A stretch of 28,376 nucleotides of DNA from Tannerellaceae bacterium (GTDB lineage Bacteria > Bacteroidota > Bacteroidia > Bacteroidales > Tannerellaceae). Shown here piece after piece: positions 268-26,950 of the stretch. Position 1 is the first letter of the stretch; the number at the start of each line of letters is the position of its first letter. The DNA lies in NCBI GenBank assembly GCA_031288615.1, contig JAITRC010000001.1, positions 1-28,376 of the forward strand, in the 5' to 3' direction. Under the pieces are notes generated by a model that saw only the letters and a program-made list of their open reading frames with translations, searched no databases and was not told the origin of the DNA. The position numbers were made by a program, and so were the translations under genes.

Positions 268-278
268 GGGGGGGGGGG
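268..278 (+). repeat. G11 homopolymer
   Basis: Eleven G on the + strand, directly beside the pyrE stop codon (complement of 279-281) and inside the orphan signal-peptide frame. With the GGGGGCGGT before it the stretch is a G-quadruplex candidate. Slippage would shift the orphan frame but leave pyrE coding intact. Confidence 0.9.
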
Positions 279-1006: not shown

Positions 1007-1016
1007 GGGGGGGGGG
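1007..1016 (+). repeat. G10 homopolymer
   Basis: Ten G on the + strand in the pyrE-susC intergenic region, followed by A and GGG. It is about 125 bases upstream of the susC -7 element. Confidence 0.9.
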
Positions 1017-1051: not shown

Positions 1052-1063
1052 GGGGGGGGGGGG
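1052..1063 (+). repeat. G12 homopolymer upstream of susC promoter
   Basis: Twelve G preceded by T and followed by TATATATGAAAAAATTTT, an AT-rich stretch that could act as an upstream promoter or regulator-binding element. The tract ends 79 bases before the susC -7 box. Length change would alter the phasing of anything bound further upstream. Confidence 0.9.
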
Positions 1064-1174: not shown

Positions 1175-4100
1175 ATGGGAAGGATAGCAAAAATAGCGGG
1201 GAAGCTGGCAGCAGGGAAGCTGGCAGCGGGGAAGCTGGCGGCAGGGCTGGTGGCGGTGCTGGTGTCGGGGGCTGTGGAGGTGCTGGGACAGGGGGTGGAG
1301 ATCAAGGGGAAGGTAGTGGATGAGTGGGGAGAGGGAGTGATAGGAGCGGCGATCGTGGTGTCGGGGACGCGTGAGGGGACGACGACGAATGTGGATGGGG
1401 AGTTTGTGCTGAAGACGAAGCGGGGGTATCCGGTGGAGCTGACGGTGCACTATGTGGGGTATAAGCCACAGGCGGTGTTGGTGAATGAGGGGAAGTTGGT
1501 GGAGGTGACGTTAAAGGAGAGCGTGCACAGTTTGGATGAGGTGGTGGTGACGGCGGGGGGTATCTTCCGAGCGCGGCGTGAGCAGGGGTATGCGACGGTG
1601 AAGATTACGGACAGTGAGCTGGGCGCAGGGAAGTCACCGACGCTGGGTGGGGGCTTGGCGGCGAAGATACCGGGGTTGCAGGTGAATGCGATCTCGAGTG
1701 GGGTGAACCCGAATTATAGGCTGGTGTTGCGGGGTAACCGCTCGATCACGGGGAATAACCAGGCGCTGATAGTGGTGGACAATGCGATTGTATCGAATGA
1801 GTTTCTGAACAACATCAACCCTTCGGACATCGACAATATACAGGTGCTGAACGGGGCGGCGGGTTCGGCGCTGTACGGATCGGAGGCATCGAACGGGGTG
1901 TTGCTGATAACGACGAAGCAGGGGGTGAAAGGGAAGCCACAGATCAAGGTGTCGAATACGACGTCGTTTGAGTCGGTGAGTTTTTTCCCGAAGTTGCAGA
2001 CGCGATTCGGTCAGGGAGCGGATGTGGATAGTCAGGTGTTTGACAAGGTGGAGAATCAGCAGTTCGGTCCGGCGTTCGACGGGACCATACGGGAATTGGG
2101 TCGCCCGTTGGTGAACGGGGATCAGCAGTATGCGGTGTACTCACCGGCCAAAGAGGGCAGGAACTCGTTTTGGGAGACAGGGGTACAGAACCGGACGGAC
2201 GTATCGGTGAGCTTTGGGAACGAGACGATCAGTTCGTTTGTATCGGCGCAGTATTTAGGGGGAACGGGGATCACGCCGGGGGATAAGTATAATAAGGTGT
2301 CGCTGCGACTGAACAACACACAGAAGCTGCCGCAGGGGATAGAGCTGTCGTACAACGTGGGTTACGTAGAGAACAACTACGACATCACGAATAACACGAA
2401 CCGGATCTATAGTGAGCTGACACAGATCTCGGCGAATGTGCCGGTGCCGAACTATAAGGATTGGGAGCATGACAAATGGTCGGACGTGGAGGGTTGGTAC
2501 AACCCGTGGTACCGAAATCCGTACTGGACGGCGGCGAACTACCGAGAGGACACGAAAGACACGTACCTGACGGGGAAGGTGGACGTGAAGTATCAGATAA
2601 AGCCGTGGCTGCATGCGTTGTATAGGGTGGCGATAGCGAATAGATACTATCAGACGCATCAGTATGGGGCGAAGGTGACGTACAGCGAGTATACGCGGAC
2701 GGTGCATACGAAGGCCGACCTGCCGGGATATGTGTACGACCGGAATTACAATAAATACCGTACGAATCAGGACTTGCAGATAGGTGTAAATAAAGACGTG
2801 GGGGGGGGTATATCTGTTAACCTGACGCTGGGGGCGAGCCATATAGATAATTCCTCGAAGAGCCAGTTGGTGGCGGCGACGGGGCTGGTGGTACCAGGGT
2901 TGAACCATATCACGAACCGTTCAGGGGATGTGACAATCCCGACGGAGAAAGCGGGGGTGAGTACGACGATGGCGGCGATACCGAAGGATCCGAACGCGAT
3001 CATCCGGAGCCGGAACTATGGGTTGTGGGGAGACTTGGTGTTAGGCTACAAGAACTACGTGTACCTGCACGTGACAGGCCGGAACGACTGGACGTCGCTG
3101 TTAGCGGCATCGAACAGGTCGTACTTTTATCCGTCGGCGGACGTGTCGTTGATCGTGACGGACGCGGTGGAGGATCTGAAGGACAATGATGTGCTGGACT
3201 ATCTGAAGGTGCGAGGAGCGTGGTCACGGGTGGGGAACGTGAATATAGACCCGTACTCGCTAAGTCCGGTGTACAGCTCAGAGGTGGGGCTCTCAAGCGG
3301 GACGTTTTTTCGGGAGTCGAAGAAGTTGGTGTTGGAGCTGAAGCCGGAGATTACGTCGGGCTATGAGGCAGGGGCGGAGTTCAGGCTGTTTAAGAGCTTG
3401 GCGGAGGTGCAGTTGACGTGGTACCACACGAATACGACGGGTCAGGCGATAGAAGCGTCGATAGCGCCGAGTTCGGGGTATAGCGAGCTGTTGCTGAATG
3501 CGGGGGAAGTGACGAACGACGGGATAGAGACGACGGTGCGGTTTAACCCGTTGCGGACAAAGGATTGGACGTTGCATGTAGGGGGTAATTATACGTATAA
3601 CCGGAACGTGCTGAAGAAGCTGTATCCGGGGTTGCCGCGGTTGGGGGTGAACGGGAGCACGGTGATCTATGCGGTGGAAGGGGAGGAGATAAACCAGATA
3701 TTTGTGTCGGACTATGCGCGAGTGCCGGCGGTGGAAGCGGATGGGACGGTGAACCCATCGGAGCTGGTGGGGAAGGTGATCGTAGATCCATTGACAGGTT
3801 ACCCGTCGAAAGCGACGGAGTCGAAATTGCTGGGGAACACGACTCCGAGACATCGTTTGGGATTGGACTTTTCGTTGCGATACAAGCAGTTCACGCTAAG
3901 CAGCGTGTTCGAATACCGAGGTGGGTACTACTACGCGGCGCATAACATCGGGTCGAGCTTAGACTTCAGCGGGGCGTCGGCCCGTACGGCGTACTATAAC
4001 CGTGAACGGTTCGTGTTTCCGAACTCGGTGTACAAGGATACGGAAGGTCAGTATGTGGCGAACACGAACGTGACGATCTCGGACGGAGGAATGGGGTTTT

Positions 4101-8639: not shown

Positions 8640-8650
8640 GGGGGGGGGGG
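8640..8650 (+). repeat. G11 homopolymer forming the entire intergenic spacer
   Basis: On the minus strand the order is protease TAA (8653-8651), C11 (8650-8640), then lipoprotein ATG (8639-8637). No other base lies between the genes. Tract length therefore sets the stop-to-start distance for translational coupling. Confidence 0.92.
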
Positions 8651-12229: not shown

Positions 12230-15200
12230 TCAGGGGAGGATGGTGAGAGGAGGGGAGTAGGGTGGGAGAGGGGCGACTACTGCGGGGGCGTAAAGGGAGC
12301 GAAGGATGGAGGAGGGTGTAGCGAAGCGTCCGGCGTGGGTGGCGGGTGCGGAGTACTCAATGAGGTGGGTGCCTCGTAAGAGGAGAGGGAAGAAGAAGGT
12401 CTCCGACGCATCACGGGGGGCATGGTAAGCCCGTAAAGCAGGGAGGAAAGAAGAGCGGTCGGCCGAGGGGGCGAGGGAGGCGGGTCGGGGGTCTTCGAGG
12501 AGGACGTAACTCATGTCGCGGTCGGTACGGATGATGAGGCGTACAAGGAGCTGATCGCCGACATGGGGAAGGGTGTCGGGGAGGGTGAGCTGTCGCTCGA
12601 TGCTAAAAAAGGCGGAGTCAGGTGGGGCGTCGTGGGAAGTGGGAAGGAGGGTGTGGGTGGGGGAAAGGAGGGTGAGGTGGGTGAGGAGGGAGGCGAGTGC
12701 GCGGAGGGTCATGGGGTGAGGCGGCCAGTCCTGGACACGCTTTTGGGCGAGGAGCCAATGGAGGAGCAGCCGGTGTTCGCCGGAGGCGGGTGCGAAGCGA
12801 AGAAAGAAGTCGGTGAGCAGGGTGTGGGTGGCGAGGGGTGTAGAGAAGAAGAAGTCGTTGGGTCGGGCGTTAGCCCAAAACATCCCTTGCGAGGGGGAGA
12901 GGGTGGCGGTGCGCCGGAAACGGCGGCGGAGGTTATCGGCGAGGCGTCGCTTGCCAAGGCGTTGGGCAAGGAGGGCGGCATGGGCTTGGGAGAGGAGAGG
13001 GAGGTGAAGCGCAGCGTCGAAGGTACGGTCGGAGAAATAGCGGTAGACGTGGGTGAAGGCGGGGTCAATGGGGACGTCGGAGAAGGTAAAGAGGCGTAGG
13101 TGGAGGAGGGCGGTCTGCTCGACGGAGGGGGTGAGCCGGCGGCGAAAATCGGGATTGAGGCTGTTATATTGCTCGGCGAGGTGTCGGTCGAGGTAAAGGA
13201 GGGCGTCGCGGTGGAGGGATAGCTCGGCGGGAGAAGGGGTGAGGGCGGTAAGCCGGTGGTACTGGGCGAGGGCGTCAAGGAGGGCGACGGTGATACGGGG
13301 GTCGGCCGGAAGGCCAGGGAACCAGGAGAAAGCACCGTCGGCGGTTCGGTAAGGGGCGAGGAGGGTGTCGTAAGAGTCGGCGTGTGCGGAGGCGGTGGAA
13401 TCGTCGTAATGGGCGAGGATGGCGCGAGCAAAGTGTGCCGCGAAGCGGGAGAGGACATCGTCGTAAGCCGGTGCGGTCAAGGCGCGGAAGGCGTTGAGGA
13501 CAAGGCGGGCGGGCGGGGCGGTATCGGGCAGGAAGGTGTCGGGAACCGTCTGTGCAGGCAGGACAGGGATGCGGCGCAGTTCACCGTCGGTGCCTTGTTC
13601 GGTTGTAGCGGAGAAGCGGAGAGTCAGGGTATCGGTGTGTGGGACGTCAATAGTCCAGCTGACGGTTTGCTCGCCGGCGGCAGAAAGAGGAACAGCTTGA
13701 GGTGGGAAGGTATCAACGGTAAGGGTAGCGGTGCCGGAAAGGGAGTCGTTGGTGCGGGAGAGGATGCGTGCGGAAAGGGTGGCACGGTCTCCCAGCCGGA
13801 AGAAACGGGGGAAAGACGGGAGGATCATAAGGGGACGGGCGGCGGTGAGTTCCTTCGTCAGAAAGGCGTGGCGGAGGGAGGGTGTATGTGCGAAGGCTTG
13901 GAGTATCCAGGTGGTATTGAGCTGGGGGAGAGGGATGGTGAGGGTGAGTGAGCCGGCACTATCTGGGGAGAGGCAGGGAGCGAAGAGGGCAGTCTCGGCG
14001 AAGTGGGTGCGGAGAGGGAAATCGTCGTCGGAGGGTGTAGGCGTAGCCGCGTCATCACCTTTGGTCACAGCAGTCCGCAAGAGGAGGGGCGAAACGGGTG
14101 TGGGTAGGGCGTCTTGCCAGTCAATGCGTCGAAAGGTAGGGTCGGGGTCGGTGGGTGTAGGGAGCGGCAGAGAAGCATGGCGGTAGGTAGGCCAGAAGAC
14201 ATCGGTGGGTCGGAAGGTGGGGCAGAGGGGGTGAAAAGGCCGGTCGGGGGAGAAAGTCCAGGAGTTGGGTAGGATGGGGTCAAGGGCTTTGTCGTAGACA
14301 GTGAGCAGGATTTCGGATTCGGCGGTAGGGAGGTCGAAGGTGACGGAGGGGGGATTGTCAGCGAGCCGTGCAGAGAAAGAGAGGGAGCGGTCGGGTCGTT
14401 TCCGGAGGATAGGCAGCTGTGCGGTGCGTAGCAGCCCGTTACGGATGTAGGAGAAGGAGGCGGTGAAGCCTTTGCCGAAGGCAGAAAGGAAAGGGATGTC
14501 AAAGGGATGGGCGTGGTGGAGGAGGGTGAGGCGCTGACGGGCGAGGAGTGAGCCGTTGGCGTCAAAGAGTTCATAGAGGACGGAAAGGGTGTCGGAGGAG
14601 AGAAAGAGGAAGCGGGCGGTATCGCCGATGGTGAGAGAGTCGGTGTGGAGAGGCACGAAGAGGGAGTCGGGTGGGGTAGGGGAGGGTGGTTCGGGGTTGG
14701 TATCGCCGACGAAGAAGGTGTAGCGGGAGGCCTGAGTTTCGCCGCGAGTGTCGGTGATGGAGGCGAAGAGTTCGTAGGTGGTGCGCCGAAAGGCGGGAAG
14801 GTCATCGGGTGGCGCGGGTCGGAAGGAGACGGCAAAGGTTCCGTCGTGGAGCAAGGCGGTCTGTCCGGCGGCCACCACCTCGCTTTGTGTGCCGATAGGC
14901 TTAAAAAAGAAGGGCGAGTATCGGCGGATACGCCAATCAACGTTTCCGCTACGAAGAGGGATGCCGGTAAAATCTGTGGCCAAGCCACGCAAGACAAGGT
15001 CTTGGCCGAAGGCAAGGCTATCACCGAGGGGTAGCCATTCGATGGTGAAGGCGGGACGTTTGAACTCCTCAATACGGATGGGAGAGGCGGTGATGTCGCC
15101 ACCGAGCGAGGCGGTGAAGCGGACAGCGCCGAGAGAGACATCGGCAGGGATGTCAAAACGTCCGTTGAAAGCACCGAAAGCATTGGTGGTAAAGGCTTGC

Positions 15201-16774
15201 GAGGCGAAGGTACGGTTATTGGCGTCAAGACAGGAGAGGGTGAAGGTGCAGTCGGGAAGGGCAAGCTCATCGGGGATGTGGACAAGGCCTTTAAAGGCGA
15301 GGGACTGGCGTGGGCGATAGAGACTACGGTCGGTGAAGAGCGTGAGGTCGGGTGGGGGAGAGGTGTCAGGAACACCGTCGCTATACACATAGAAGGCGGC
15401 GGGAGGTGCGGCGGTGTCATTCGGAAGGAAAGGACGGAAAGCCAAAGGTCGGTGAGCATCGGCAGGGAGGCGGGCGAGGCCGAAGGAATCGGTGCGGAGG
15501 GTGTCAAGAGGCTGAAGGTCGTCCCTGCGTCCGCCGAGGAGCTGGATAGAAGCGTCAAGGGGTTGTCCGGAACGTCGGTCGACGGCAAGGATCTCCGTGT
15601 CACCGGAGGTTAAGCGACGCCCGACGGCGGTAAGCCGTGTCACGGCAAGCGGATGCACAGACCGAAGGTGGTGCTGCGAAGCAGCAATCACATACTCATA
15701 AGCGCCGACAGACGGAGTAGAGAGGCGGATCAGCGTATCACGGAAGGCATAAGGTGGAACGTCGGGGAGAGGGATGTCAGTGTGCTGCACATCGCTATTC
15801 CCTTGGCGGAGGGTGATACGGGCGGCGGGGATGTTCCGCCAGGAAAGGGTGATGTCAATGGAATCGTTGGGGTAGGCTGTACGGGGGATAGAAGAGCTGA
15901 GGGTAGGCCCTTCGAGCTGCGCTAGCTTGTCACGGAGGAGGATGGTGCGGCGGTAGCCGGGAAACAAGGCGATACCTTCCTTGCAAAGGAGGAACTGCAA
16001 GCGCCGGACAGAATCGGGGGCGTGAAGGCGTTCGGGGATACCTTCGAGGTACTCAATGCGGGCAAGACGTACCTCATTGGAACAGTCATAGCTTGCGTAC
16101 CGACGGGCGAGGTCGGTGAGGTCGGCTTGGTAAGAAGAACGGGCGGTGTGGCGGCGAGGAGCAAGGGTGTAACGGTAGTGCAGATAATCCAACTCAAGGC
16201 GCAAGGAGGCTGCGGTATCGGCAGAAGTACGGCGAAAGGCAAGCCAGTGGGTGTAAAGGGCTTCGGAGGGACGGAGGTCGGCCGCTCTCCCAGCGAGGAA
16301 ATCGTAAAGCGTGGGACGGAGCTTGTCGTCGGCACCGGCGGGGGTCATCAATGAGCCGAACCGGGTAGCGGGCGTCTGCTGTAGCAACTCCGGCGGCATG
16401 AGGGAGAGGTGCAGGTGGTCGTCAATCGTACGGGCGAACCGGTCGGCGCTCCAGGTGCGGATGTCGGCAGGGAGACTGTCGGTGGTGTTGGTACGGCGGT
16501 CAATGAGGCGTCGGTGACGGCTGTAATAGTTGTCGTACATCTCCGCGATGAGGGAGTGTAGAAGGGCCTTTGCCGCTGCATCCTTCATTACCTCCGCCTG
16601 TCTGTCGGCTTCTTCAATGAGGTTGGGCAGGCTGTCCTCATCCCGCTCAATCCCAGCCTTTACATGGGATATAAACTCCCGTATATCTTGCTGCGCCTGG
16701 CGCTTTTCCGTTGCCGGAAACCCCGTTACGTATGCGGCTATGAATACGACGGCAAGTATCCGGCTTCTGCTCAT
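12230..16774 (-). CDS. Alpha-2-macroglobulin family protein (bacterial, no thioester)
   Basis: A 1514-residue exported protein with an N-terminal hydrophobic signal (LAVVFIAAYVTGF). Features in order: a helical N-terminal region, an MG2 segment around 475-500 (LFTDRSLYRPRQSLAFKGLV), the A2M/MG7 region around 925-980 (ETALFAPCLSPDSAG, PLPQLNTTWILQAFAHTP), a helical TED-like domain around 1100-1350 (GAFSWFPGLPADPRITVALL, MFWANARPNDFFFSTPLATH), and a C-terminal receptor-like domain near 1425-1514 (RTDRDMSYVLLEDPRPASL). No CxEQ thioester motif is visible, so covalent trapping of proteases is unlikely. It starts inside the stop codon of the MFS gene (ATGA, 16774-16771). The coding strand is strikingly C-rich, and Pro, Thr, Ser and Arg dominate the protein. 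It may protect the envelope against proteases; the function is inferred from the family. Confidence 0.88.
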   Translation of the reverse strand: MSRSRILAVVFIAAYVTGFPATEKRQAQQDIREFISHVKAGIERDEDSLPNLIEEADRQAEVMKDAAAKALLHSLIAEMYDNYYSRHRRLIDRRTNTTDSLPADIRTWSADRFARTIDDHLHLSLMPPELLQQTPATRFGSLMTPAGADDKLRPTLYDFLAGRAADLRPSEALYTHWLAFRRTSADTAASLRLELDYLHYRYTLAPRRHTARSSYQADLTDLARRYASYDCSNEVRLARIEYLEGIPERLHAPDSVRRLQFLLCKEGIALFPGYRRTILLRDKLAQLEGPTLSSSIPRTAYPNDSIDITLSWRNIPAARITLRQGNSDVQHTDIPLPDVPPYAFRDTLIRLSTPSVGAYEYVIAASQHHLRSVHPLAVTRLTAVGRRLTSGDTEILAVDRRSGQPLDASIQLLGGRRDDLQPLDTLRTDSFGLARLPADAHRPLAFRPFLPNDTAAPPAAFYVYSDGVPDTSPPPDLTLFTDRSLYRPRQSLAFKGLVHIPDELALPDCTFTLSCLDANNRTFASQAFTTNAFGAFNGRFDIPADVSLGAVRFTASLGGDITASPIRIEEFKRPAFTIEWLPLGDSLAFGQDLVLRGLATDFTGIPLRSGNVDWRIRRYSPFFFKPIGTQSEVVAAGQTALLHDGTFAVSFRPAPPDDLPAFRRTTYELFASITDTRGETQASRYTFFVGDTNPEPPSPTPPDSLFVPLHTDSLTIGDTARFLFLSSDTLSVLYELFDANGSLLARQRLTLLHHAHPFDIPFLSAFGKGFTASFSYIRNGLLRTAQLPILRKRPDRSLSFSARLADNPPSVTFDLPTAESEILLTVYDKALDPILPNSWTFSPDRPFHPLCPTFRPTDVFWPTYRHASLPLPTPTDPDPTFRRIDWQDALPTPVSPLLLRTAVTKGDDAATPTPSDDDFPLRTHFAETALFAPCLSPDSAGSLTLTIPLPQLNTTWILQAFAHTPSLRHAFLTKELTAARPLMILPSFPRFFRLGDRATLSARILSRTNDSLSGTATLTVDTFPPQAVPLSAAGEQTVSWTIDVPHTDTLTLRFSATTEQGTDGELRRIPVLPAQTVPDTFLPDTAPPARLVLNAFRALTAPAYDDVLSRFAAHFARAILAHYDDSTASAHADSYDTLLAPYRTADGAFSWFPGLPADPRITVALLDALAQYHRLTALTPSPAELSLHRDALLYLDRHLAEQYNSLNPDFRRRLTPSVEQTALLHLRLFTFSDVPIDPAFTHVYRYFSDRTFDAALHLPLLSQAHAALLAQRLGKRRLADNLRRRFRRTATLSPSQGMFWANARPNDFFFSTPLATHTLLTDFFLRFAPASGEHRLLLHWLLAQKRVQDWPPHPMTLRALASLLTHLTLLSPTHTLLPTSHDAPPDSAFFSIERQLTLPDTLPHVGDQLLVRLIIRTDRDMSYVLLEDPRPASLAPSADRSSFLPALRAYHAPRDASETFFFPLLLRGTHLIEYSAPATHAGRFATPSSILRSLYAPAVVAPLPPYSPPLTILP

Positions 16775-18120
16775 GTTCTATGTGGCTTCGCTTCGATGCC
16801 GTACCCAGCCTTGCGGTCTTCGGCCTTGAGTAGCAAGGTGGCGAAACAAGCCAATAGCCCGAAGGCGGCGAAAATGGCCATCGGGATGCTGTAATCGTAA
16901 GCTGTAGTGCCGTCGGGAAGGGTTTGAAGGGCAAACCGATCGATGACCCTCCCTATCAGCATGGGGACGGTGATGAGGCCGAAGTTCTGTATCAGGAAAA
17001 TGAGGGAGAAGGCAGTACCTAACTGTTTCTGAGGGATGATCTTCGGTACCGAAGGCCATAGTGCCGACGGCACCAGCGAAAAGGCTACCCCCAGTAGGAT
17101 CATCACGATGGTGGCAAACCACCATACCTCGCATATCGGCAAGGCGAATAAGACATGTACCCCCGTCATGATAGCCGCACCTACCAACATCAGGGTCGTA
17201 CCCTTCCCCGCACGATCGTACAAGGTGCCGAAGAGCGGCGTAAGCAGTATCGTCCCGAAAGGCAAAAGTCCGGGAATAAGTCCGGCAATGTGGTCAGGTA
17301 CATGGTACTTATAGATCATCAACTTTGTGGCAAACTTCAAGAACGGGAAAATCCCTGCATAGAACAGCAGGCAGAGGAAGGCAATCATCCAAAAGCCTTT
17401 GTTGGCGACGATCATCCGTATGTCACTCAACTTGAACCCTTCTTCCCCATCTTCTACCGTTAGTTTCACGGAAGCGTCCAACTTCCTGTCCATGATATGG
17501 TATACCAGGAACGTCACTAAGCCTATGCATAGCAAGGCAACCCCCAGCCATACCGGCGCCGACACTTCACCCATCCGTTTGGCCACCGGCAGGCTGAAAC
17601 TTAACGCCAGGGCAGTACCCAAGCGTGCTACGGCAACCTGTAACCCCATGGCGAGGGCTAACTCGTATCCCGTAAACCATTTGACGATGACCTTACTGAC
17701 TGTGATGCCGGCAATCTCTGCACCCATCCCAAAGGTGGCGAAGCCTAATCCCGCCACGGCGACCTGTGAATTTATTCCAGCGATAGTTCCCCCTCCGGAA
17801 AACCATTGTGACACGGCGTAAGCCTTCAGCAAAGCCCCTCCTACCATCAGGCAACAAGCCATGGTACCCGTGAACCGTATGCCGGCCTTGTCCAGAATGA
17901 TCCCCCCCAGCAAAAGCATGAACAAGAATACGTTGAACCAACCGTAAGCGCCTGTGAAAATACCGTACTCCGTACTGCTCCAGCTGTAAGTGCGTATCAA
18001 CAAGTCCTCCAACGGCGCCATGACATCTGTCACGAAGTAAGCACACATCATCGTTACCGATACAATCGCTAACGCACCCCACCGCGCCCCTTTCGAGGCC
18101 CTCAAACTCATCTCTGTCAT
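16771..18120 (-). CDS. MFS transporter, 12 transmembrane segments
   Basis: A 449-residue inner-membrane transporter of the major facilitator superfamily. The hydrophobic profile fits 12 helices with a longer charged loop near the middle (LDASVKLTVEDGEEGFKLSD). The loop after helix 2 has GGIILDKAGIRF, matching the MFS motif A position, and KVIVKWFTGYELALAMGLQV and FGTLYDRAGKGTT are further family-like loops. It recalls the oxalate/formate-antiporter and MFSD1-like branches, but I cannot name a substrate. Starts are possible at residue 1 (18120) or Met4 (18111). It is transcribed with the alpha-2-macroglobulin gene, whose start it overlaps by 4 bases. Base composition here is ordinary, unlike the next gene. 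Confidence 0.88.
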   Translation of the reverse strand: MTEMSLRASKGARWGALAIVSVTMMCAYFVTDVMAPLEDLLIRTYSWSSTEYGIFTGAYGWFNVFLFMLLLGGIILDKAGIRFTGTMACCLMVGGALLKAYAVSQWFSGGGTIAGINSQVAVAGLGFATFGMGAEIAGITVSKVIVKWFTGYELALAMGLQVAVARLGTALALSFSLPVAKRMGEVSAPVWLGVALLCIGLVTFLVYHIMDRKLDASVKLTVEDGEEGFKLSDIRMIVANKGFWMIAFLCLLFYAGIFPFLKFATKLMIYKYHVPDHIAGLIPGLLPFGTILLTPLFGTLYDRAGKGTTLMLVGAAIMTGVHVLFALPICEVWWFATIVMILLGVAFSLVPSALWPSVPKIIPQKQLGTAFSLIFLIQNFGLITVPMLIGRVIDRFALQTLPDGTTAYDYSIPMAIFAAFGLLACFATLLLKAEDRKAGYGIEAKPHRT

Positions 18121-18143
18121 CCTGCCGACCGGTTAAATTGCTT

Positions 18144-18154
18144 GTGCGAAGTAA
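18144..18154 (-). promoter_or_regulatory. Possible MFS promoter element (TTACTTCGCAC)
   Basis: Eleven bases identical to 12169-12179 in the same orientation, 24 bases before the MFS ATG. This is a degenerate match to TAnnTTTG. Confidence 0.35.
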
Positions 18155-18167
18155 AGGCTATAGGCTG

Positions 18168-18238
18168 TTGTTCAACCAGGACTCGAACCTGGAATTTCAG
18201 GACCAGAATCTGACGTGTTACCATTACACCATTGAACA
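18168..18238 (-). tRNA. tRNA-Gln (anticodon CTG)
   Basis: A 71-nt cloverleaf. Acceptor stem TGTTCAA/TTGAACA is perfect, D-stem GTGT/ACAC, anticodon loop TTCTGGT, T-stem CCAGG/CCTGG with loop TTCGAGT, discriminator A. CCA is not encoded. The loop-closing pair 31-39 is an A-C mismatch, so the anticodon stem has four Watson-Crick pairs. Confidence 0.93.
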
Positions 18239-18288
18239 GTCTCCCGCCTAGGGCGGCTACGTGGAAAATCACCTCCGTGAATCCGGCG

Positions 18289-18296
18289 CAAATGTA
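18289..18296 (-). promoter_or_regulatory. tRNA-Gln -7 element (TACATTTG)
   Basis: The complement of 18289-18296 is TACATTTG, an exact TAnnTTTG match about 50 bases before the mature tRNA 5' end. The leader contains a small CCGCC/GGCGG hairpin (244-256 of 18 kb). Confidence 0.55.
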
Positions 18297-18340
18297 AAGG
18301 AGTTTTTCTATCTCGCCGCCCTACGGTTGTAAAATATTTC

Positions 18341-18348
18341 TACTTTTG
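18341..18348 (+). promoter_or_regulatory. tRNA-Met / gtrA -7 element (TACTTTTG)
   Basis: An exact TAnnTTTG element 21 bases before the tRNA-Met gene. It is the only promoter-like sequence before the glycan cluster that starts at 18467. Confidence 0.65.
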
Positions 18349-18369
18349 CCCCCACTTGCAAAGCGTCAA

Positions 18370-18443
18370 GGCGAGATAGCTCAGCCGGTTAGAGCGCATG
18401 ATTCATAATCATGAGGTCGGGGGTTCAATCCCCCCTCTCGCTA
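18370..18443 (+). tRNA. tRNA-Met (anticodon CAT)
   Basis: A 74-nt cloverleaf. Acceptor stem GGCGAGA/TCTCGCT with a G-U first pair, anticodon stem CATGA/TCATG with loop TTCATAA, T-stem GGGGG/CCCCC with loop TTCAATC, discriminator A. CCA is not encoded. The paired first position argues against an initiator tRNA, so it is most likely elongator Met. A lysidine-modified tRNA-Ile2 also has a CAT gene anticodon and cannot be fully excluded. Confidence 0.9.
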
Positions 18444-18466
18444 CAGAGGGAAGGGGTGATACTAAG

Positions 18467-18883
18467 ATGAAAAAGAAACTACAGGCTTGTTTTGTAGACG
18501 AGACGAATAAAGTCCTTACGCAACTGCTCAGGTACACTTTTGTCGGGGGTTTCGCCTTCGCCATTGACTTCGGACTGTTGTGGTTTTTCACGGAAATACT
18601 GGATTTTTACTACATCCTTTCAGCCTCTATTTCTTTTGTTGCCGGCTTATTCGTCAATTATTTTATCAGTACAAAATGGGTTTTTAATAAAGGGAAAGTC
18701 CTGAATAAAAAACTTGAGTTTATTTATTTTGGACTCATAGGAGCAGTTGGCCTGATATTAAACGATGTGTTAATTTGGGTATTAACCGACTTTGTAAGCG
18801 TAAATTACTTGGTATCGAAAATCATCACAGCTATCTTGATTTATTTGTGGAACTTTTTTGCCCGCAAATATTTTTTGTTTTGA
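18467..18883 (+). CDS. GtrA-family membrane protein
   Basis: A 138-residue integral membrane protein with four hydrophobic helices. The opening LLRYTFVGGFAFAIDFGLLW, then FVAGLFVNYFISTKWVFNKG and the final IYLWNFFARKYFLF, are the GtrA/DPMS pattern. Such proteins are thought to move polyprenyl-phosphate-linked sugars across the inner membrane. I start it at ATG 18467 (MKKKLQ), because the longer frame begins inside the tRNA-Met gene. It lies 23 bases after that tRNA, with GGAAGGGG as ribosome site and no promoter between, so it may be transcribed with the tRNA. The next two genes continue the same glycan-assembly theme. Confidence 0.85.
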   Translation: MKKKLQACFVDETNKVLTQLLRYTFVGGFAFAIDFGLLWFFTEILDFYYILSASISFVAGLFVNYFISTKWVFNKGKVLNKKLEFIYFGLIGAVGLILNDVLIWVLTDFVSVNYLVSKIITAILIYLWNFFARKYFLF

Positions 18884-18933
18884 TAGGTAGCCGTTCAAAC
18901 TATATCCTGTGAAAAATGATTAATTATGTGTGA

Positions 18934-20397
18934 ATGAAAACGAAAATAGTCATTATTGGAGCAGGGCCTGCAGGTATTGTCGCCGGTTATGAATTACTGA
19001 AACAAGACAGTAAGTCGGATGTAATCATTCTGGAACAATCACAGGCCATTGGTGGTATTTCCCGGACGATATGCCACAATGGAAACCGTATGGACATCGG
19101 CGGTCATCGCTTCTTTTCAAAAGACGAGAAAGTAACGGAATGGTGGAACACCATCCTACCAATGTTGACGCGCCGCCGCGTTTCACGCATCTTTTACCGC
19201 AAGGCTTTTTTTGATTATCCCGTCAAGCTGAATGTGAATACCATTAAAAACATGGGGGTTGCGACTACCCTGTCGGCGGCATTCAGTTACCTATATTCTA
19301 CCATGTTCAAGAAACCGGAAACCTCTTTGGAGAATTTCTACATCAACCGGTTCGGACGTAAATTGTACTCCATGTTTTTTGAATCGTATACGGAAAAAGT
19401 TTGGGGTAGACATCCCAGTAAAATTTCACCGGACTGGGGTGCACAGCGAGTAAAAGGACTGTCAATACGCGCTGTGTTGAAAGATATTTTTTACAAGGCT
19501 TTTCACAGAAAACAGGACAAGGATAAAGTTGAAACGTCACTCATTGAGTATTTTTCCTACCCCCAATACGGACCCGGACAATTGTGGGAAACCGCCGCAG
19601 AAGCATTTGAGAAAATGGGTGGCAAGCTGAATAAAGGTTGTCGGGTGACTTCCTTTGAAACGGAAAATGGAAAATTGACCGGAGTGGTCTATGAATCAAA
19701 CGGTGCGAGTTTTACCGAGACGGCAGACATTATTATTTCTTCGATGCCGATTAAGGATTTGGTGGCGGGTATGCCGCAGGCACCTGAATACATCCGCCGC
19801 ATTGCTTCGGGACTGCCTTACAGGGACTTTATTACAATTGGTTTATTGGTTCCCAAACTTGCACTAAAAAATCAAACAAAAATTATAACATCGGGTAATA
19901 TCATTCCGGATTGCTGGATATATGTGCAAGATGACAATGTACGGTTGGGACGCGTACAGATATTTAACAATTGGTCACCCTACCTGGTAAAAGATCATGA
20001 ACGCACGGTTTGGATCGGGCTGGAATACTTTTGCAATGAAGGTGATGCATTTTGGAATATGGATGAAAAAGAACGCATCCGGCTGGCTGTGAAGGAGCTG
20101 GTCGCTATTGGTCTAATTGCCGAAGATGAGCCTATACTGGACTCCCATTGCGAATATGTCCAAAAGGCTTATCCGGCTTATTTCGACACCTATGCCGAAA
20201 TAGATACCCTGATAGAATACTTGAATACCTTTGAAAATCTATATTGCATCGGGCGTAATGGCCAGCATCGCTACAACAATATGGATCATTCCATGGAAAC
20301 GGCATTCGAAGCGGTAAAGAATATTTTATCGGACGCCAAGGATAAATCGAATGTATGGAATGTAAATCAGGAAGAGGAATATCATGAAGAAAAATAA
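18934..20397 (+). CDS. FAD-dependent oxidoreductase / UDP-galactopyranose-mutase-like protein
   Basis: A 487-residue flavoprotein. The N-terminal Rossmann signature [16 protein letters not shown] (G9, G11, G14) with Glu34 ending the second strand binds the FAD ADP moiety. GGISRT (40-45) and DIGGHRFF (54-61) follow as in the amine-oxidase/UDP-galactopyranose mutase superfamily. The C-terminal FAD contact region is [19 protein letters not shown]. Its position between a GtrA protein and a GT-C glycosyltransferase suggests a sugar-nucleotide or lipid-linked sugar as substrate, but the reaction is not known. It starts at ATG 18934 and its last 14 bases overlap the start of the next gene, so the two are translationally linked. 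Confidence 0.82.
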
Positions 20398-21742
20398 ATA
20401 CCTGCCGATCGTTGCGGCCATACTAATCCTTGTCTTTTCGGTAAATGACTATAGCTTATGGATAGATGAAATGCAAACTTATGGAATCGTCTTCGAAAGC
20501 GACTTTTTTAAAACACTCTCAACCATTTGGAATACAACAGGTTCAGTAGGAGGTATGCCGCTATTTTTTATTTTGGAATGGTTTTGGACACAACTTTTCG
20601 GGTACAGTGAAATCGCAATGCGCAGTATAAATATCCCCTTTGCCATTGTTTATTTTATCTTTTCGTACAAGATAATTCGTTATGTCAAAGAACCCACCTG
20701 GCTCTGCCTTTTATTCTTTTTCAATCCCTTATTTATCTATTATATGAATGAAGCGCGCCCGTATATCATGTTGCTCTGTATGGGAAGCGTGTTCTCTTAC
20801 CTATTGTTCTGCTGCGATACAAATAGGTACAAAACACTGTTTTGGCTACACGTCTCATTTCTGATTGGATTGTTGACCCACATGATGTTCGGGTTTATTA
20901 TCATTCTGTACATAACACATTGCATCACATCCATCCGTCAACGAAAGTTAATGCTTCAACAGCATTTGGTAATGGGAAGTGCTTTCCTGCTTCCCTATTT
21001 TGCCGTACTTTACCATTACGGGAATGTGATGATCGGGGCAGCCGAATTAGGTGGAACAGGTGAACTATCGGCCGGCGGATTGTCGAGCATCGCCCAAATA
21101 GTCTATTACCTCGCAGGATTTGGAGGGCTTGCACTCTCAAGAAATGACTTGCGAGCAATGATGCTTTCCCACTTATCCATTGAGCATGTTGTTTTCTCTA
21201 TCCTATTGATAGCCGGTTACTTTACTCTTTTTCTGTATATCCTCAAAAACAAAGCCGGTAAAAACAACGCTATACAGACTCTGTTTCTTCCGGCGTTAAT
21301 TACGTTAGGTGTTTTTTGTATCTCCAATATAATACTCGAAACGCGTTTTTGGGAACGCCATGTCATATACTTGCTACCGGTCATATTACTTTCCTTATGC
21401 ACTATTTTAAAAGCGATGAGTGCGTCCGGGAAATGGCTCTACCGGATTGGCGCAGGCCTAATCGTGATTTCCCTGTTCGTTTCCAGTTTCAATACAATGT
21501 TCAACCAATATTACCGAAAAGAAAACTACAAAGCTGTAGCCGCTTGTATTAAGGATATGGGAGCCGGTACATTCCTCTTGCAGGGTGATGCACAGATTTA
21601 TAGTTACTACGGCATAAATGTAGACGAAAAACAGGTGCTAATGATAAATAATATCAGTATTGAAGAATTAGATGCAATCGTTATGGCAAAATACCCCCCC
21701 CCCCCATGTATACCTTGTACTTTCAAGCAGGCAAGAATTTGA
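20384..21742 (+). CDS. GT-C (GT39/PMT-like) membrane glycosyltransferase, C-terminus frameshifted at C12
   Basis: A multi-pass inner-membrane protein of 452 residues as sequenced. The first periplasmic loop contains [12 protein letters not shown] with the Asp-Glu pair typical of GT-C enzymes that use polyprenyl-phosphate sugars. About ten hydrophobic helices follow. The frame crosses C12 at 21694-21705 and ends after [15 protein letters not shown]. With one C fewer (C11) the frame continues for 39 coherent residues (start [20 protein letters not shown], end FRILEFSK) to TAA 21822-21824, giving 479 residues. With C10 or C13 it ends [10 protein letters not shown]...IVA at 21768. The C11 product looks like the genuine full protein, so the sequenced state is probably a slipped variant or an assembly error. 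It overlaps the FAD gene by 14 bases. Confidence 0.85.
21694..21705 (-). repeat. C12 homopolymer (G12 on the minus strand) in the glycosyltransferase gene
   Basis: Twelve C in the coding strand at codons 437-441 (Tyr-Pro-Pro-Pro-Pro). The three possible lengths modulo 3 give three different C-termini ending at 21742, 21768 or 21824. Confidence 0.93.
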
Positions 21743-21841
21743 CACCGGAGGATTATATCGTAGCTTAGATAAGGAAAACAAAGCGTCGTATAACTCGTTT
21801 CGGATATTGGAGTTTTCCAAATAAGCGGAGGATTGAAATCA

Positions 21842-21859
21842 TACTTTTGATTACCTTTG
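21842..21859 (+). promoter_or_regulatory. Tandem -7 elements before ppiD (TACTTTTG and TACCTTTG)
   Basis: TACTTTTG (21842-21849) and TACCTTTG (21852-21859) are both exact TAnnTTTG matches, 10 bases apart and 48-66 bases before the start at 21907. Two start sites or a strong compound promoter are possible. Confidence 0.6.
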
Positions 21860-21906
21860 GCACCCAATATGGAGTACAATAAAGTCGTAGAGGAAAGGTT
21901 ACAGGA

Positions 21907-24054
21907 ATGGCTACACTTGAGAAGATAAGAAGTAAGGCGGGTTTGCTGGTAGGCGTCGTCGGGTTGGCGTTGTTCGCGTTTATCATTGGAGACTTTCTAA
22001 ATTCAGGGTCCTCGTTCCTGAGGCAGTCGCAGGAGAAAATTGCGGAGGTGGACGGGACGTCGCTGACGATACAGGATTACCAGAAACGCATCGACGAAAT
22101 GGTAGAGATGTACAAGTTGCAGTCGGGCAACACGTCGCTACCGGAGGATATCATGACGCAAATACGTGAATCGGTCTACGAGACGATGGTGCGCGAGACC
22201 GTATTGGGTGAACAGTTGGACGAACTGGGTATACAAGTGACGCCGGAGGAATTGTTCGACATGGTGCAGGGGGACAATATGTCTCCGATCATCCTCCAGA
22301 TGCCTATGTTTCAGGATGCGGAAGGGCGGTTCAACAAGGCCTCCCTACTGCAAATGCTGAAGGCGATAGATGAAGATTACATTGCAGGCGTACCGGCTGA
22401 CCAGCAAGCGCAATTGCTGTCGCTACGCCGTTTCTGGCTTTTCTGGGAAAAGACGATCAAGCAACAACGCTTGGAAGAGAAATATACGAGCCTCATTTCC
22501 AAAGGTATAGTGGCCAATAAATTGGAAGGGCGCTATCAACTTGACGCTACTGCTACTACGGCAGATATTCTTTTCACGACGCAACCGTTTTCTACTATTC
22601 CAGATTCGATTATAAAAGTTAAGGAAGGTGAAATAGAAGAACTATACGAACAACGTAAAGAGAGGTATTGTCAGCATAAAGCGCAGGTGGTAGATTACAT
22701 TGCGGTGGATATTGTACCCAGTGCGGACGATTATGAGGAAGTACGGAGTGAAATTGAAAGTTTGCGTGAAGAGTTTACGGCTTCGGAAGACGTGGCGGAC
22801 TTGGTGAGTGAACATTCGGATGTACCCTTTGAGGATGTGTTCGCGGCTATGGAAACTTTTGATGAATCTATAAAATCGTTTCTGGCTACGGCGGAAAAAG
22901 GGCACGTTGGAGAGTTGTTGTTCGAGAACGATGCCTATAGGCTATTCAAACTCGTTGGGAGTAAGGTGGGGCCGGACTCCGTGAAGGTGAGTCACATCAT
23001 GGTGAGCGGACAGACAGAAAGTGAAGTGACGGTGAGAGTGGACAGTATTTTGAATGAACTGCGTAAAGGTGCTGATTTCGGACACATGGCCGCCGATATT
23101 TCAGTAGACAAGCAGTCGGCTGAAAAAGAAGGTGATTTGGGCTGGTTTACAGAGGCAGGTGCTGTACGTGGTCTGAGCACTGAATTTAAGGATACCATCT
23201 TTGCCGCAGGCTTGAACGAAGTGAAGACGGTTAAATCCATCTACGGTACGCACTTGGTAAAGGTGACGGAGAAGACGGCTAATGTTATTAAATATAAAGT
23301 GGCGGACATCACGGTCTCTGTATCGCCAAGCTCCGAAACCTACAGCAATATCTACAATGCACTGAATCAGTATATTGCAAACAATAATAATGTAGAGAAA
23401 TTCAAAGCCTCTGCACAGGATGCAGGGTATCGGCTACGGACAGAGGTACAGGTATCGGTGTCTGACCAGACGATAGACGCACTTAAAAATACCCGTCAGG
23501 TGGTGCGCTGGGTTTTTGAACACGGTAAGGGGGATGTCTCTGAGATTTTTGAATGTGACAACAAGTTTGTGGTAGCTGTGGTGGAGGGTTCTCTGTCTGA
23601 AGGTTACCGCCCGCTTGACGAAGAACTGTCTGCAACGCTGAAACAGGAGTTGGTTACGCAGAAAAAAGGCGAGCTGATTGTTAAAGAGCTGAAAGAGAAG
23701 GGTTTAAAGACGCTTGCCGAGTATGCGGAGGTGATGAATCACGGGCGAATTGACTCGGTAAAGTTCGTCGGATTTAATACCTCACGTATTATGGGTATGG
23801 GGGTGGTGCCGAAACTAAACGCCTACATCTCGCTGGCTGAAGAAGGACAAGTAAGCCCTCCCGTGGCGGGTAGTGACGGGGTGCATGTTTTTGAAGTGAT
23901 ACAGAAGCATGTACAGCCGCGTGACGGCGACCACGATGACATCCGGCAAGCGGAAATTATGACAGCTTCCAACGGCTATCGCTATCAGTACCAACTGGTG
24001 CAGTCGCTTCTTGATAAGGCGAAAGTGGAAGACTTGCGTATACGTTTCTATTAA
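21907..24054 (+). CDS. PpiD-like periplasmic peptidyl-prolyl isomerase / foldase
   Basis: A 715-residue inner-membrane-anchored chaperone. One N-terminal transmembrane helix (about 13-30, LLVGVVGLALFAFIIGDFLN) is followed by a SurA_N-like chaperone region (about 40-180, VDGTSLTIQDYQKRIDEM). A parvulin domain lies at about 355-455 (VKVSHIMVSGQTESEV, ADFGHMAADISVDKQSAEKE, GDLGWFTEAG, YGTHLVKVTEK). A second, less clear parvulin-like or C-terminal segment follows. Such proteins help newly exported envelope proteins to fold at the Sec exit. An ACAGGA ribosome site precedes the ATG. It is 24 bases ahead of pyrF and likely shares its transcript. Confidence 0.9.
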   Translation: MATLEKIRSKAGLLVGVVGLALFAFIIGDFLNSGSSFLRQSQEKIAEVDGTSLTIQDYQKRIDEMVEMYKLQSGNTSLPEDIMTQIRESVYETMVRETVLGEQLDELGIQVTPEELFDMVQGDNMSPIILQMPMFQDAEGRFNKASLLQMLKAIDEDYIAGVPADQQAQLLSLRRFWLFWEKTIKQQRLEEKYTSLISKGIVANKLEGRYQLDATATTADILFTTQPFSTIPDSIIKVKEGEIEELYEQRKERYCQHKAQVVDYIAVDIVPSADDYEEVRSEIESLREEFTASEDVADLVSEHSDVPFEDVFAAMETFDESIKSFLATAEKGHVGELLFENDAYRLFKLVGSKVGPDSVKVSHIMVSGQTESEVTVRVDSILNELRKGADFGHMAADISVDKQSAEKEGDLGWFTEAGAVRGLSTEFKDTIFAAGLNEVKTVKSIYGTHLVKVTEKTANVIKYKVADITVSVSPSSETYSNIYNALNQYIANNNNVEKFKASAQDAGYRLRTEVQVSVSDQTIDALKNTRQVVRWVFEHGKGDVSEIFECDNKFVVAVVEGSLSEGYRPLDEELSATLKQELVTQKKGELIVKELKEKGLKTLAEYAEVMNHGRIDSVKFVGFNTSRIMGMGVVPKLNAYISLAEEGQVSPPVAGSDGVHVFEVIQKHVQPRDGDHDDIRQAEIMTASNGYRYQYQLVQSLLDKAKVEDLRIRFY

Positions 24055-24078
24055 CGGATTACCTCCCACAACTGCCTT

Positions 24079-24912
24079 GTGGACAGACGACAGCTTTTCG
24101 ACCAGATACGCGCCAAGCGTTCATTCCTCTGTGTGGGGTTAGATACCGATATAGCGAAAATTCCTGCCGGCCTTTTCGAGGGTGAAGATTCTCCTGTATT
24201 TGCCTTCAATAAGGCTATCGTGGATGCTACGGCCGACCTCTGTGTGGCGTACAAGCCTAACATGGCGTTTTACGAAAACAGGGGAAAAGAGGGGATTGCA
24301 GACTTTGAGAAGACTGTTGCCTATATCCGTACCCATTATCCAGAGCAGTTCATTATTGCGGATGCCAAGCGGGGAGACATTGGGAATACGTCGGCAATGT
24401 ATGCGAAGTATTTCTTTGGAAGCGTCAAGGTAGATGCTGTGACGGTGGCTCCTTATATGGGTGAGGATAGTGTATCGCCTTTTTTAGGGTATCCGGGGTG
24501 CTGGACAGTTGTACTTGCATTGACTTCCAACAAAGGAGCAGAAGATTTCCAACTGACAACGGATACCGTAGGGGAACGGCTGTTTGAAAAAGTGTTGCGT
24601 CGTTCGCAGCGATGGGCGACAGCTGATGAGATGATGTATGTGGTGGGTGCTACGCAAGGTCGTTTGCTGGCTGATGTGCGCCGATTGGCGCCGGATCATT
24701 TTTTCCTTGTTCCCGGTATCGGTGCACAAGGAGGGAGCTTGGAGGAAGTAGCCCGTTACGGGATGAATGAATGGTGTGGCTTGCTTGTCAATTCTTCCCG
24801 TGCAATTCTCTACGCCGGTAATACGGCAGGTTTTCCTACTGCCGTCCGGCAGGCTGCTTTCAAGGTGCAGCAAGAAATGGCTGCTTGCCTAACGGCTAAA
24901 AACCTGCTCTGA
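24079..24912 (+). CDS. pyrF: Orotidine 5'-phosphate decarboxylase
   Basis: Last step of UMP synthesis: decarboxylates OMP, the product of PyrE. The 277 residues match the longer bacterial/mycobacterial type. [16 protein letters not shown] is the N-terminal family signature and [15 protein letters not shown] (91-105) holds the catalytic Asp95-Lys97...Asp100 array. The phosphate-binding end is VPGIGAQGG, followed by [12 protein letters not shown]. The start is GTG at 24079: no ATG is available in frame upstream, and the [20 protein letters not shown] start aligns well with the family. It follows ppiD by 24 bases without an obvious promoter. No terminator is seen before pfp, which has its own promoter. 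Confidence 0.94.
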
Positions 24913-24945
24913 TTTTTGAGCCTTAATGAATATCCGTAAAAGGTT

Positions 24946-24953
24946 TACCTTTG
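24946..24953 (+). promoter_or_regulatory. pfp -7 element (TACCTTTG)
   Basis: An exact TAnnTTTG match 44 bases before the start at 24997. Confidence 0.65.
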
Positions 24954-24996
24954 GGGACGTTTCTAAAAGTGCAAACAGATTAAATTCAACAGAAAA

Positions 24997-26643
24997 ATGA
25001 TGGCAAAAAGTGCATTACAGGTTGCAAGGGCGGCCTACAACCCTAAAGTGCCTGCGGCACTGAAAGGGGCGGTGAAGGCAGTAGACGGTGCGGCTACCCA
25101 CTCGGTAGCAGACAGGGAAGATATCAAGAAGCTGTTCCCCAATACATACGGAATGCCGATAGTGACCTTCCAAGCAGCCGACAAACCCGTAGCGGGCGCG
25201 GCTATTAAGGTGGGTGTCATCCTTTCGGGGGGACAGGCGCCAGGAGGACATAATGTGATCGCGGGTCTGTTTGACGGGATCAAGGCTATCCATGCCGATT
25301 CAAAGCTGTACGGTTTTCTGATGGGGCCGGGAGGGCTGGTAGACCACAAGTACAAGGAGTTGACGGTAGACATCATTGATGAGTACCGCAACACGGGTGG
25401 ATTTGATATGATCGGCTCCGGTCGGACGAAGTTGGAACAGAAAGAACAGTTCGACAAAGGTTTGGAGATCATCAAAAAGCTGGGTATACAGGCTTTAGTG
25501 ATTATCGGTGGAGATGACTCGAATACGAATGCCTGCGTCCTGGCCGAATACTACAAGGCGTCGGGTGCGGGAGTACAGGTGATCGGTTGCCCGAAAACAA
25601 TAGACGGTGACTTGAAGAACGAGCAGATTGAAACGTCTTTTGGTTTCGATACCGCTTGCAAGGTGTATGCTGAAATGATCGGAAACATTGAACGGGACTG
25701 TAATTCGGCACGTAAATATTGGCACTTTATCAAGCTGATGGGGCGTTCAGCCTCCCACATAGCCTTGGAGTGCGCCTTGCAGACGCATCCCAATATATGT
25801 ATCATCTCCGAAGAAGTAGAGGCAAAGAACCTGACGTTGGATGCGATTGTGACGAATATCGCCGAAATCGTCGCTGAGCGTGCCAAGGTGAGCGATAACT
25901 TCGGTACGGTACTTATTCCTGAAGGACTGATTGAGTTTGTTCCGGCTTTCAAACGCCTTATTGCTGAGCTAAATGACTACCTCGCCCATCACGACGCTGA
26001 GTTTAAAACTATTACCCGCGATGAACAGCGCGGCTATATCATTGGCAAACTTTCCGCTGCCAATGCGGAGCTATATGCCAGTTTACCGGAGGGTGTTGCT
26101 CGTCAGCTGACATTGGATCGTGACCCTCATGGTAATGTACAGGTATCGCTTATCGAGACGGAGAAACTACTTTCCGAAATGGTTGCCCGTAAATTAGAGG
26201 TGTGGAAAAAGGAGGGTAAGTATAAGGGAAAGTTCGCCGCGCAGCATCACTTCTTTGGGTACGAGGGACGTTGTGCCGCACCGTCTAACTATGACGCCGA
26301 CTACTGTTACTCTTTGGGTTACACGGCTTCGTGCCTTATTGCTTCCGGCAAAACGGGCTATATGTCATCAGTGCGCAATACGACTGCTCCGGCGGCGCAA
26401 TGGATAGCAGGCGGCATCCCTGTCACAATGATGATGAATATGGAACGTCGCCATGGAGAAATGAAACCGGTTATCCGTAAGGCGCTCGTTGAGCTGGACG
26501 GTAAACCGTTCAAGATTTTCGCCGCCCAACGTGACTTGTGGGCATTGACGACAAATTACATATATCCCGGCCCTATCCAATATTTTGGCCCCACTGAGGT
26601 CTGTGATCAATCCACACAGACACTCAAACTGGAGAAAGAATAA
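24997..26643 (+). CDS. pfp: Pyrophosphate-dependent 6-phosphofructokinase
   Basis: A 548-residue cytoplasmic enzyme that reversibly phosphorylates fructose 6-phosphate with PPi instead of ATP, typical of Bacteroidales glycolysis. The long PFP type is shown by its length and by [15 protein letters not shown] (73-87), the GGDDSNTNA phosphate-binding loop (171-179) with Asp in place of the ATP-type Gly, and the catalytic KTIDGD (200-205). [12 protein letters not shown] and [20 protein letters not shown] follow as expected. The start can be the first or second ATG of ATGATG (24997 or 25000). It has its own promoter at 24946 and a clear terminator at 26689, so it is probably monocistronic. Confidence 0.95.
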
Positions 26644-26648
26644 AGAGA

Positions 26649-26662
26649 GCGACTGCTGTCGC
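26649..26662 (+). other. Small hairpin after pfp
   Basis: GCGAC-TGCT-GTCGC begins five bases after the pfp stop codon. There is no T-run, so it is probably an mRNA 3'-end stabiliser or incidental. Confidence 0.3.
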
Positions 26663-26688
26663 CACTGGAACGGATTTTCTATCTCATG

Positions 26689-26718
26689 AACAGCCTCTTT
26701 TATAGGGGCTGTTTTTTT
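26689..26718 (+). terminator. Rho-independent terminator of pfp
   Basis: Stem AACAGCCTC/GGGGCTGTT (nine pairs, one G-T) with a seven-base loop, followed by T7 (712-718 of 26 kb). Confidence 0.85.
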
Positions 26719-26719
26719 A

Positions 26720-26729
26720 GGGGGGGGGG
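26720..26729 (+). repeat. G10 homopolymer between convergent terminators
   Basis: Ten G two bases after the T-run of the pfp terminator, and directly behind the terminator of the opposite tRNA unit. Confidence 0.9.
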
Positions 26730-26734
26730 TGATA

Positions 26735-26766
26735 AAAAGAGAGCCGCCTATTCGAAGGCGACTCTC
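26735..26766 (-). terminator. Rho-independent terminator of the tRNA-Tyr/tRNA-Gly unit
   Basis: On the minus strand AAGAGAGTCGCC pairs with GGCGGCTCTCTT (one mismatch) around a TTCGAATA loop, followed by a T-rich stretch (TTTTTATC). It lies a few bases after tRNA-Gly. Confidence 0.75.
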
Positions 26767-26771
26767 TTTAG

Positions 26772-26844
26772 AGCGGAAGACGGGACTCAAACCCGCGACC
26801 CTCAGCTTGGAAGGCTAATGCTCTATCAACTGAGCTACTTCCGC
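26772..26844 (-). tRNA. tRNA-Gly (anticodon TCC)
   Basis: A 73-nt cloverleaf. Acceptor stem GCGGAAG/CTTCCGC, D-arm GCTC...GAGC, anticodon stem TTAGC/GCTGA with loop CTTCCAA, T-stem GCGGG/CCCGT with a G-T pair, discriminator T. CCA not encoded. Downstream of tRNA-Tyr in one unit. Confidence 0.94.
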
Positions 26845-26855
26845 AAGAAAAGAAG

Positions 26856-26937
26856 TGGGCAGTGATGGATTCGAACCACCGAAGGCTACGCCAGCTGAGT
26901 TACAGTCAGCCCCATTTGGCCACTCTGGTAACTGCCC
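26856..26937 (-). tRNA. tRNA-Tyr (anticodon GTA)
   Basis: An 82-nt class II tRNA. Acceptor stem GGGCAGT/ACTGCCC, anticodon loop CTGTAAC in stem GCTGA/TCAGC, a long variable arm (TGGCGTAGCC), T-loop TTCGAAT, discriminator A. CCA not encoded. Eleven bases separate it from tRNA-Gly. Confidence 0.95.
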
Positions 26938-26950
26938 TGAAATGCGGGGA

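Follow-up and report, generated by a model that had tools for sequence, protein, structure and literature searches.

A poly-C tract near the end of a probable glycosyltransferase gene as a candidate for slipped-strand phase variation in a Tannerellaceae lineage with many poly-G/C runs

Analysis of the window (the whole stretch of DNA studied, 28,376 nucleotides or 28 kb) placed a probable membrane glycosyltransferase gene last in a cassette with a GtrA and a FAD oxidoreductase gene, between a tRNA-Met gene and ppiD (Table 1). The GtrA open frame was called from position 18398, inside the tRNA-Met gene, and the true start of the gene is probably later. The glycosyltransferase frame crosses a run of 12 C and stops 11 residues later, giving a protein of 452 amino acids as assembled. 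With one C fewer (C11), 39 codons follow the tract up to a TAA at 21822-21824, and the protein comprises 479 amino acids ending in ...YNSFRILEFSK. The C10 and C13 frames add 20 other residues and end at 460 and 461 amino acids. A long mononucleotide run inside an open frame, the mark of simple-sequence-repeat phase variation, is therefore present in this gene, and as in C-terminal phase variation it lies near the 3' end and alters the end of the protein (tails of 39, 11 or 20 residues). The first-pass annotation had described the run at exactly these positions, the early stop, the 39 further codons to 21824 with one C fewer and a third, shorter end for C10 or C13; recomputation returned all four. 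The run is far beyond chance, with one C run of at least 9 nt seen against 0.017 expected from the window's own C-to-C step probability.

Table 1. Coordinates of the cassette, its tract, the other G/C runs of the window and the receptor loci of relatives.
Feature	Position	Strand	Remark
G11, directly after the stop of a phosphoribosyltransferase-domain gene (- strand)	268..278	+	
G10, between the phosphoribosyltransferase gene (-) and a SusC gene (+)	1007..1016	+	
G12, 112 nt ahead of the called SusC start	1052..1063	+	
G9 in the SusC-type gene 1175-4411 (CarbopepD_reg, Plug)	2800..2808	+	in frame, outside the linker
C11, filling the whole gap from a subtilase stop to the ATG of a META-domain, lipoprotein-like gene	8640..8650	-	
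tRNA-Met bordering the cassette	18370..18444	+	
Cassette GtrA - FAD oxidoreductase - glycosyltransferase, between tRNA-Met and ppiD	18445..21839	+	limits are the ends of DNA alignments
FAD oxidoreductase, PRK07208 type	18934..20397	+	domain matches
Probable membrane glycosyltransferase (GT39-like by homologue names), 452 aa as assembled, tract-truncated	20384..21742	+	
C12 homopolymer	21694..21705	+	near codon 437 of the 479 in the full-length frame
Conserved C-terminal tail	21706..21824	+	in frame only if the tract loses one C or gains two
G10 beside a terminator-like hairpin (by eye), after a phosphofructokinase gene	26720..26729	+	
SusC-linker loci L086, L091, L094, L127, L129 (genome G492) and L110 (genome G494)	near 1500 of each locus		poly-G, 12-14 nt

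The identity of the gene was assessed through its homologues. The protein search returned 40 matches, one of which was the window's own protein. No Pfam match was obtained at E ≤ 0.001 for the window protein or for its homologues P0002 and P0010, the window protein had no NCBIfam match at E ≤ 0.01, and its profile matched no PDB chain. The GT-C label of the first-pass annotation is suggested by the names of two homologues (P0010 and P0014, both called glycosyltransferase family 39 by their sources), but no curated Pfam or NCBIfam model of glycosyltransferase family 39 or GT-C recognised the protein. A W26-I27-D28-E29 motif near the N-terminus was invariant in 15 sequences, and we take such an acidic motif to be typical of GT-C enzymes. 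The gene is presumed to act on an envelope glycan.

The nearest of the genomes compared was a metagenome-assembled genome (MAG) named 'Tannerellaceae bacterium' (G419). It was identified as the source of the ppiD match P0043, as one of its loci (L080) encodes that protein letter for letter. The best ppiD matches were two JGI proteins (87% and 86%) and P0043 (86%), followed by another Tannerellaceae MAG (69%) and Bacteroidales bacterium Barb4/Barb6XT (63%); the pfp-type gene of G419 was 94% identical to that of the window. Barb strains are symbionts of insect-gut protists. An insect-gut habitat for the window's organism is therefore only a guess. G419 was syntenic with the window at 12225-18444 (79%) and at 21840-28374 (83-85%), and the GtrA/FAD-oxidoreductase/glycosyltransferase trio was absent from its syntenic contig at the junction, which is limited by the end of the tRNA-Met gene and, at its opposite edge, by the region upstream of ppiD. 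This junction alignment establishes the absence for the syntenic place only. Searches with the glycosyltransferase also gave no match in G419 or in five genomes of the genus of another relative, G206, an empty answer that is not proof of absence. The trio probably lies beside ppiD in the relative carrying P0002 as well, since P0002 and the ppiD homologue P0042 (87%) are both listed with a longest contig of 10,069 nt.

To address which C-terminus is the natural one, each of the three tails was compared with the C-terminal 90 residues of 37 homologues (P0002-P0038). Scores for the C11 tail were 186, 164 and 100 against P0002, P0003 and P0004, with a median of 56 over the 37 homologues, and the maximum of its 200 shuffles, scored on P0002 only, was 35. 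The median over the same homologues was 11 for the C12 tail and 18 for the C10/C13 tail, both at shuffle level. The homologues therefore do not end at the C12 tail, and the refuting outcome named in the first-pass annotation did not occur; this tail was at shuffle level against P0002. The closest homologues were P0002 (86% identity) and P0003 (78%), with P0004-P0011 at 51-55%. All of P0002-P0011 extend beyond the tract position with a version of LSSRxEFD...NSFxI (LSGRNDFD in P0011), and the tail columns D451 and F470 in P0002 numbering were nearly invariant across 37 sequences. Identity to P0002 was 37/38 after the tract and 382/436 before it, and identity to P0003 was 33/38 and 346/436, so that conservation is higher in the tail than in the remainder of the protein, and the tail has not decayed. 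Because only the C11 frame matches the homologues, the assembled C12 allele is predicted to be a truncated 'OFF' form (452 amino acids), and a C11 allele would be the full-length 'ON' form (479 amino acids). A change in tract length would thus join or break a conserved protein. The first-pass claim that the tract selects among three C-termini holds insofar as its length alters the protein end and the C11 end is natural, but conservation is confined to one frame, and the C12 and C10/C13 tails score like shuffled sequence, which indicates a choice between full length and truncation and not three equal ends.

Conservation at this gene does not extend to the tract itself. The proline run that the C tract encodes is missing from P0002 and P0003, with MGKDVPVYL where the C11 frame of the window has MAKYPPPHVYL. 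With KDVPVYL in both homologues and KYPPPHVYL in the window, the C run seems to have arisen in the window's lineage. No second allele of the gene was found, the protein cluster of the window's own sequence (P0001) having a single member, and the tract with its flanks had no match in a scan of viral contigs. A scan of genome contigs with the glycosyltransferase returned one distant locus at 55%, which contained no G/C run of at least 7 nt.

Six further G/C runs were present in the window in addition to the tract of the first-pass annotation, making seven of 9-12 nt (in order 11, 10, 12, 9, 11, 12 and 10). Six G runs of at least 9 nt were seen against 0.76 expected from the window's own step probabilities, and G-run lengths were either at most 6 or 9-12, with none of 7-8. 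No A/T run exceeded 7 nt, which is no surprise as only about 0.4 runs of at least 9 nt were expected. The G10 at 26720-26729 had no counterpart in the aligned sequence of G419, showing that tracts differ between close relatives. The window's SusC gene had no run in its linker. The phosphoribosyltransferase-domain gene near the first run is presumably pyrE. Two of the runs (10 and 12 nt) lie at 1007-1063, in the divergent region preceding the SusC gene; the G12 was considered as splitting a gene and was rejected, since the frame concerned prolongs the phosphoribosyltransferase gene upstream by chance. A role of tracts upstream of SusC genes as promoter spacers, considered by visual inspection, is not proposed. 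The subtilase gene is flanked within 7767-11397 by two similar lipoprotein-like genes, both starting MKTTKFL, and the ATG of the one at 10537-11397 is preceded by ordinary sequence, unlike that of the gene behind the C11 gap.

The density of such runs was compared across 123 genomes, the family of G206 (which includes G419), taken as Tannerellaceae by the name of the MAG of P0043. The six runs of at least 10 nt in the window correspond to 211/Mb, although one window cannot give a genome density. G/C runs of at least 10 nt had a median of 0.7/Mb in the family, calculated with rounded genome sizes, and 21 genomes had none; the maximum was 16.5/Mb (G492), and G419 was second of the 123 with 10.6/Mb. 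At the density of the richest genome, 0.47 runs would be expected in the window, and the probability of six or more is about 1e-5. Part of the tract counts in MAGs stems from poly-G at contig ends, plainly so in genome G449; the contig-end pattern applied there lets a C precede the run and counts long runs repeatedly, and was used only for spotting artefacts. In a published survey, mononucleotide runs of at least 8 nt are listed as strongly avoided in Bacteroidetes (PMC4060949). The first-pass annotation had called switching of this kind unusual in Bacteroidetes, and this stands to the extent that inversion dominates (PMC11868660), but G/C tracts are common in some genomes of the family.

Several tracts of relatives were found to interrupt genes. 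A G12 in G419 splits a GT2 glycosyltransferase, with PF00535 positions 2-51 in one frame and 52-121 in the next. A second G12 in the same genome seems to split a HAD hydrolase, probably a HAD phosphatase: the first piece matched HAD_2 positions 1-151, and the second scored 20.6 bits, below the Pfam cut-off of 22. Further G419 tracts closely precede the genes of a bacterial sugar transferase and of YceG, or occupy the 3' end of the gene for a sulfatase-domain enzyme. SusC-type receptors of G492 and G494 carry runs of G12-G14 in the linker between CarbopepD_reg (..FIGYTTQEI) and Plug (..LLEDSRxLDEVVVVGYGT). Of the 84 tracts scanned (window 6, G419 17, G492 41, G494 17, G487 3), six were complete linker cases. 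The two halves are out of frame in five of these and in frame in the sixth, and the four that were tested in Pfam had STN and CarbopepD_reg before the tract and Plug after it. Two further loci were not counted as linker cases: in L082 the contig ends 19 nt past the run, and L128 is a C22 run at a contig end with no receptor sequence preceding it. The scan covered 41/43 tracts of G492, 17/23 of G494, 3/17 of G487 and 17/17 of G419. Tracts within 700 nt of SusC-like matches, counts that have no genomic background rate, numbered 2/6 in the window, 2/17 in G419, 6/20 in G492, 6/17 in G494 and 0/3 in G487; for want of that rate the SusC argument rests on the linker cases. Five tracts of G494 lie 257-428 nt upstream of SusC-like matches.

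Frame splits were then counted by a rule that requires two long open frames, which are not proven genes, on either side of a run of at least 10 nt in G419, G492 and G494. Splits were seen at 17/61 G/C tracts, compared to 297/3188 random positions (9.3%) in the same stretches (Fisher P 4e-5), and at 3/36 A/T runs of at least 8 nt. The other 44 G/C tracts had no visible split, many of them being intergenic. A further 14 of 75 tracts, less than 300 nt from a stretch end (1 in G419, 13 in G492), were left out, and the upstream threshold had been lowered from 80 to 70 codons after the locus L075, with 78 codons, had escaped. The initial rule (80 codons, runs of at least 9 nt) gave 14/58 against 4.8-6.6% of random positions in the same three genomes, and also labelled 1/7 runs in the window and 1/3 in G487 as splits.

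The reading we favour, with a probability of about 0.65, is that a probable envelope-glycan enzyme undergoes slipped-strand phase variation as part of a lineage-wide poly-G/C repertoire. Replication slippage on a hypermutable poly-C tract would shift its length by one or more C. C11 (or C14) would yield the enzyme with its conserved C-terminal segment (ON), and the assembled C12, or C10/C13, would put 11 or 20 residues of unrelated sequence in its place (OFF or altered). Given the GtrA/FAD-oxidoreductase/glycosyltransferase cassette to which the gene belongs, sibling cells would come to differ in an envelope sugar through this switch. What we infer from the sequence is that slippage occurs in living cells, that truncation abolishes activity and that there is a sugar phenotype; the truncated protein retains about 437 of 479 residues and may be active nonetheless.

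The main rival is a miscount of one base in the assembly of a real tract. The cells would then carry C11 and make the full-length enzyme, the tract would possibly still be mutable, and its nature would stay unchanged. A metagenome consensus may be off by one in a 12-mer, and here an intact frame with a fully conserved tail is one base away. The tracts of relatives, however, are out of frame in several genes with matching halves, even if a miscount is conceivable for every one of them, and we consider this explanation unlikely for the window. A fixed or drifting frameshift, in which neutral growth of the tract was followed by loss of the C-terminus with no switching, would fit the coming and going of tracts between species (the run at 26720 compared to G419, the proline run compared to P0002 and P0003) and the lack of visible effect of most tracts located. 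It is harder to reconcile with a tail that has 1 change in 38 relative to P0002 and no decay, and with G/C tracts that split open frames about three times as often as random positions, and is accordingly judged rather improbable.

Slippage of the ribosome (or of RNA polymerase) on the C run could instead restore full length from C12, with both ends made at a set ratio. Starting from C12, a +1 shift would be required, to which CCC-C sites are prone; the run is nevertheless absent from the two closest homologues, P0002 and P0003, so no programmed frameshift site is conserved in orthologues, and this account has very little probability. That all three ends are functional and give three specificities would suit a late tract that alters only the protein end, but the shuffle-level scores of the C12 and C10/C13 tails against the homologues make it hardly credible.

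In comparison to slipped-strand variation of the one gene, a wider proposal is put forward more tentatively, at slightly less than even odds: that a Tannerellaceae lineage has a very large poly-G/C repertoire through which slippage turns glycan enzymes and SusC nutrient receptors on and off, in the role of DNA inversion in Bacteroides, with the SusC switch fixed at the CarbopepD-Plug linker. Hundreds of tracts per genome would be present if the window's density holds. If true, Bacteroidales would have a second, independent route of surface diversification, overlooked by inversion finders; annotation would record the switched genes as broken, and frameshifted SusC and glycosyltransferase genes in Tannerellaceae MAGs would often be phase-OFF alleles.

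The slippage mechanism is already known from other phyla. Among the matches listed from open-licence PMC papers, no title or abstract dealt with switching by poly-G/C tracts in Tannerellaceae or of SusC genes. The closest precedent is Helicobacter canadensis, in which late poly-G tracts give C-terminal phase variation, with ranges of tract length in the reads and three frame lengths per gene (PMC2823697). The window shares with that species a G/C tract of at least 10 nt so close to the 3' end that the final residues depend on its length, but it belongs to another phylum and has one clearly conserved end, and the read-level variation belongs to H. canadensis. Poly-G on/off switching of a surface-glycan transferase is described for cgtB of Campylobacter jejuni (PMC6437147), where homopolymer slippage truncates a sugar transferase as is proposed from sequence here; the window's tract differs in being poly-C on the coding strand, near the C-terminus and in a Bacteroidales host. 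The SusC linkers of G492 and G494 resemble the phase-variable haemoglobin receptors HmbR/HpuAB of Neisseria (PMC3786947) in having poly-G in an outer-membrane receptor frame, although they are of the SusC type with the tract in the CarbopepD-Plug linker. In Bacteroides, capsule and SusC/SusD genes are switched by inversion (PMC11868660), and the same kinds of surface genes are concerned here, with slippage proposed in place of DNA inversion. For B. fragilis, a passing suggestion of slippage concerns an acetyltransferase-related gene in which a run of four has gained one additional C (PMC3090145).
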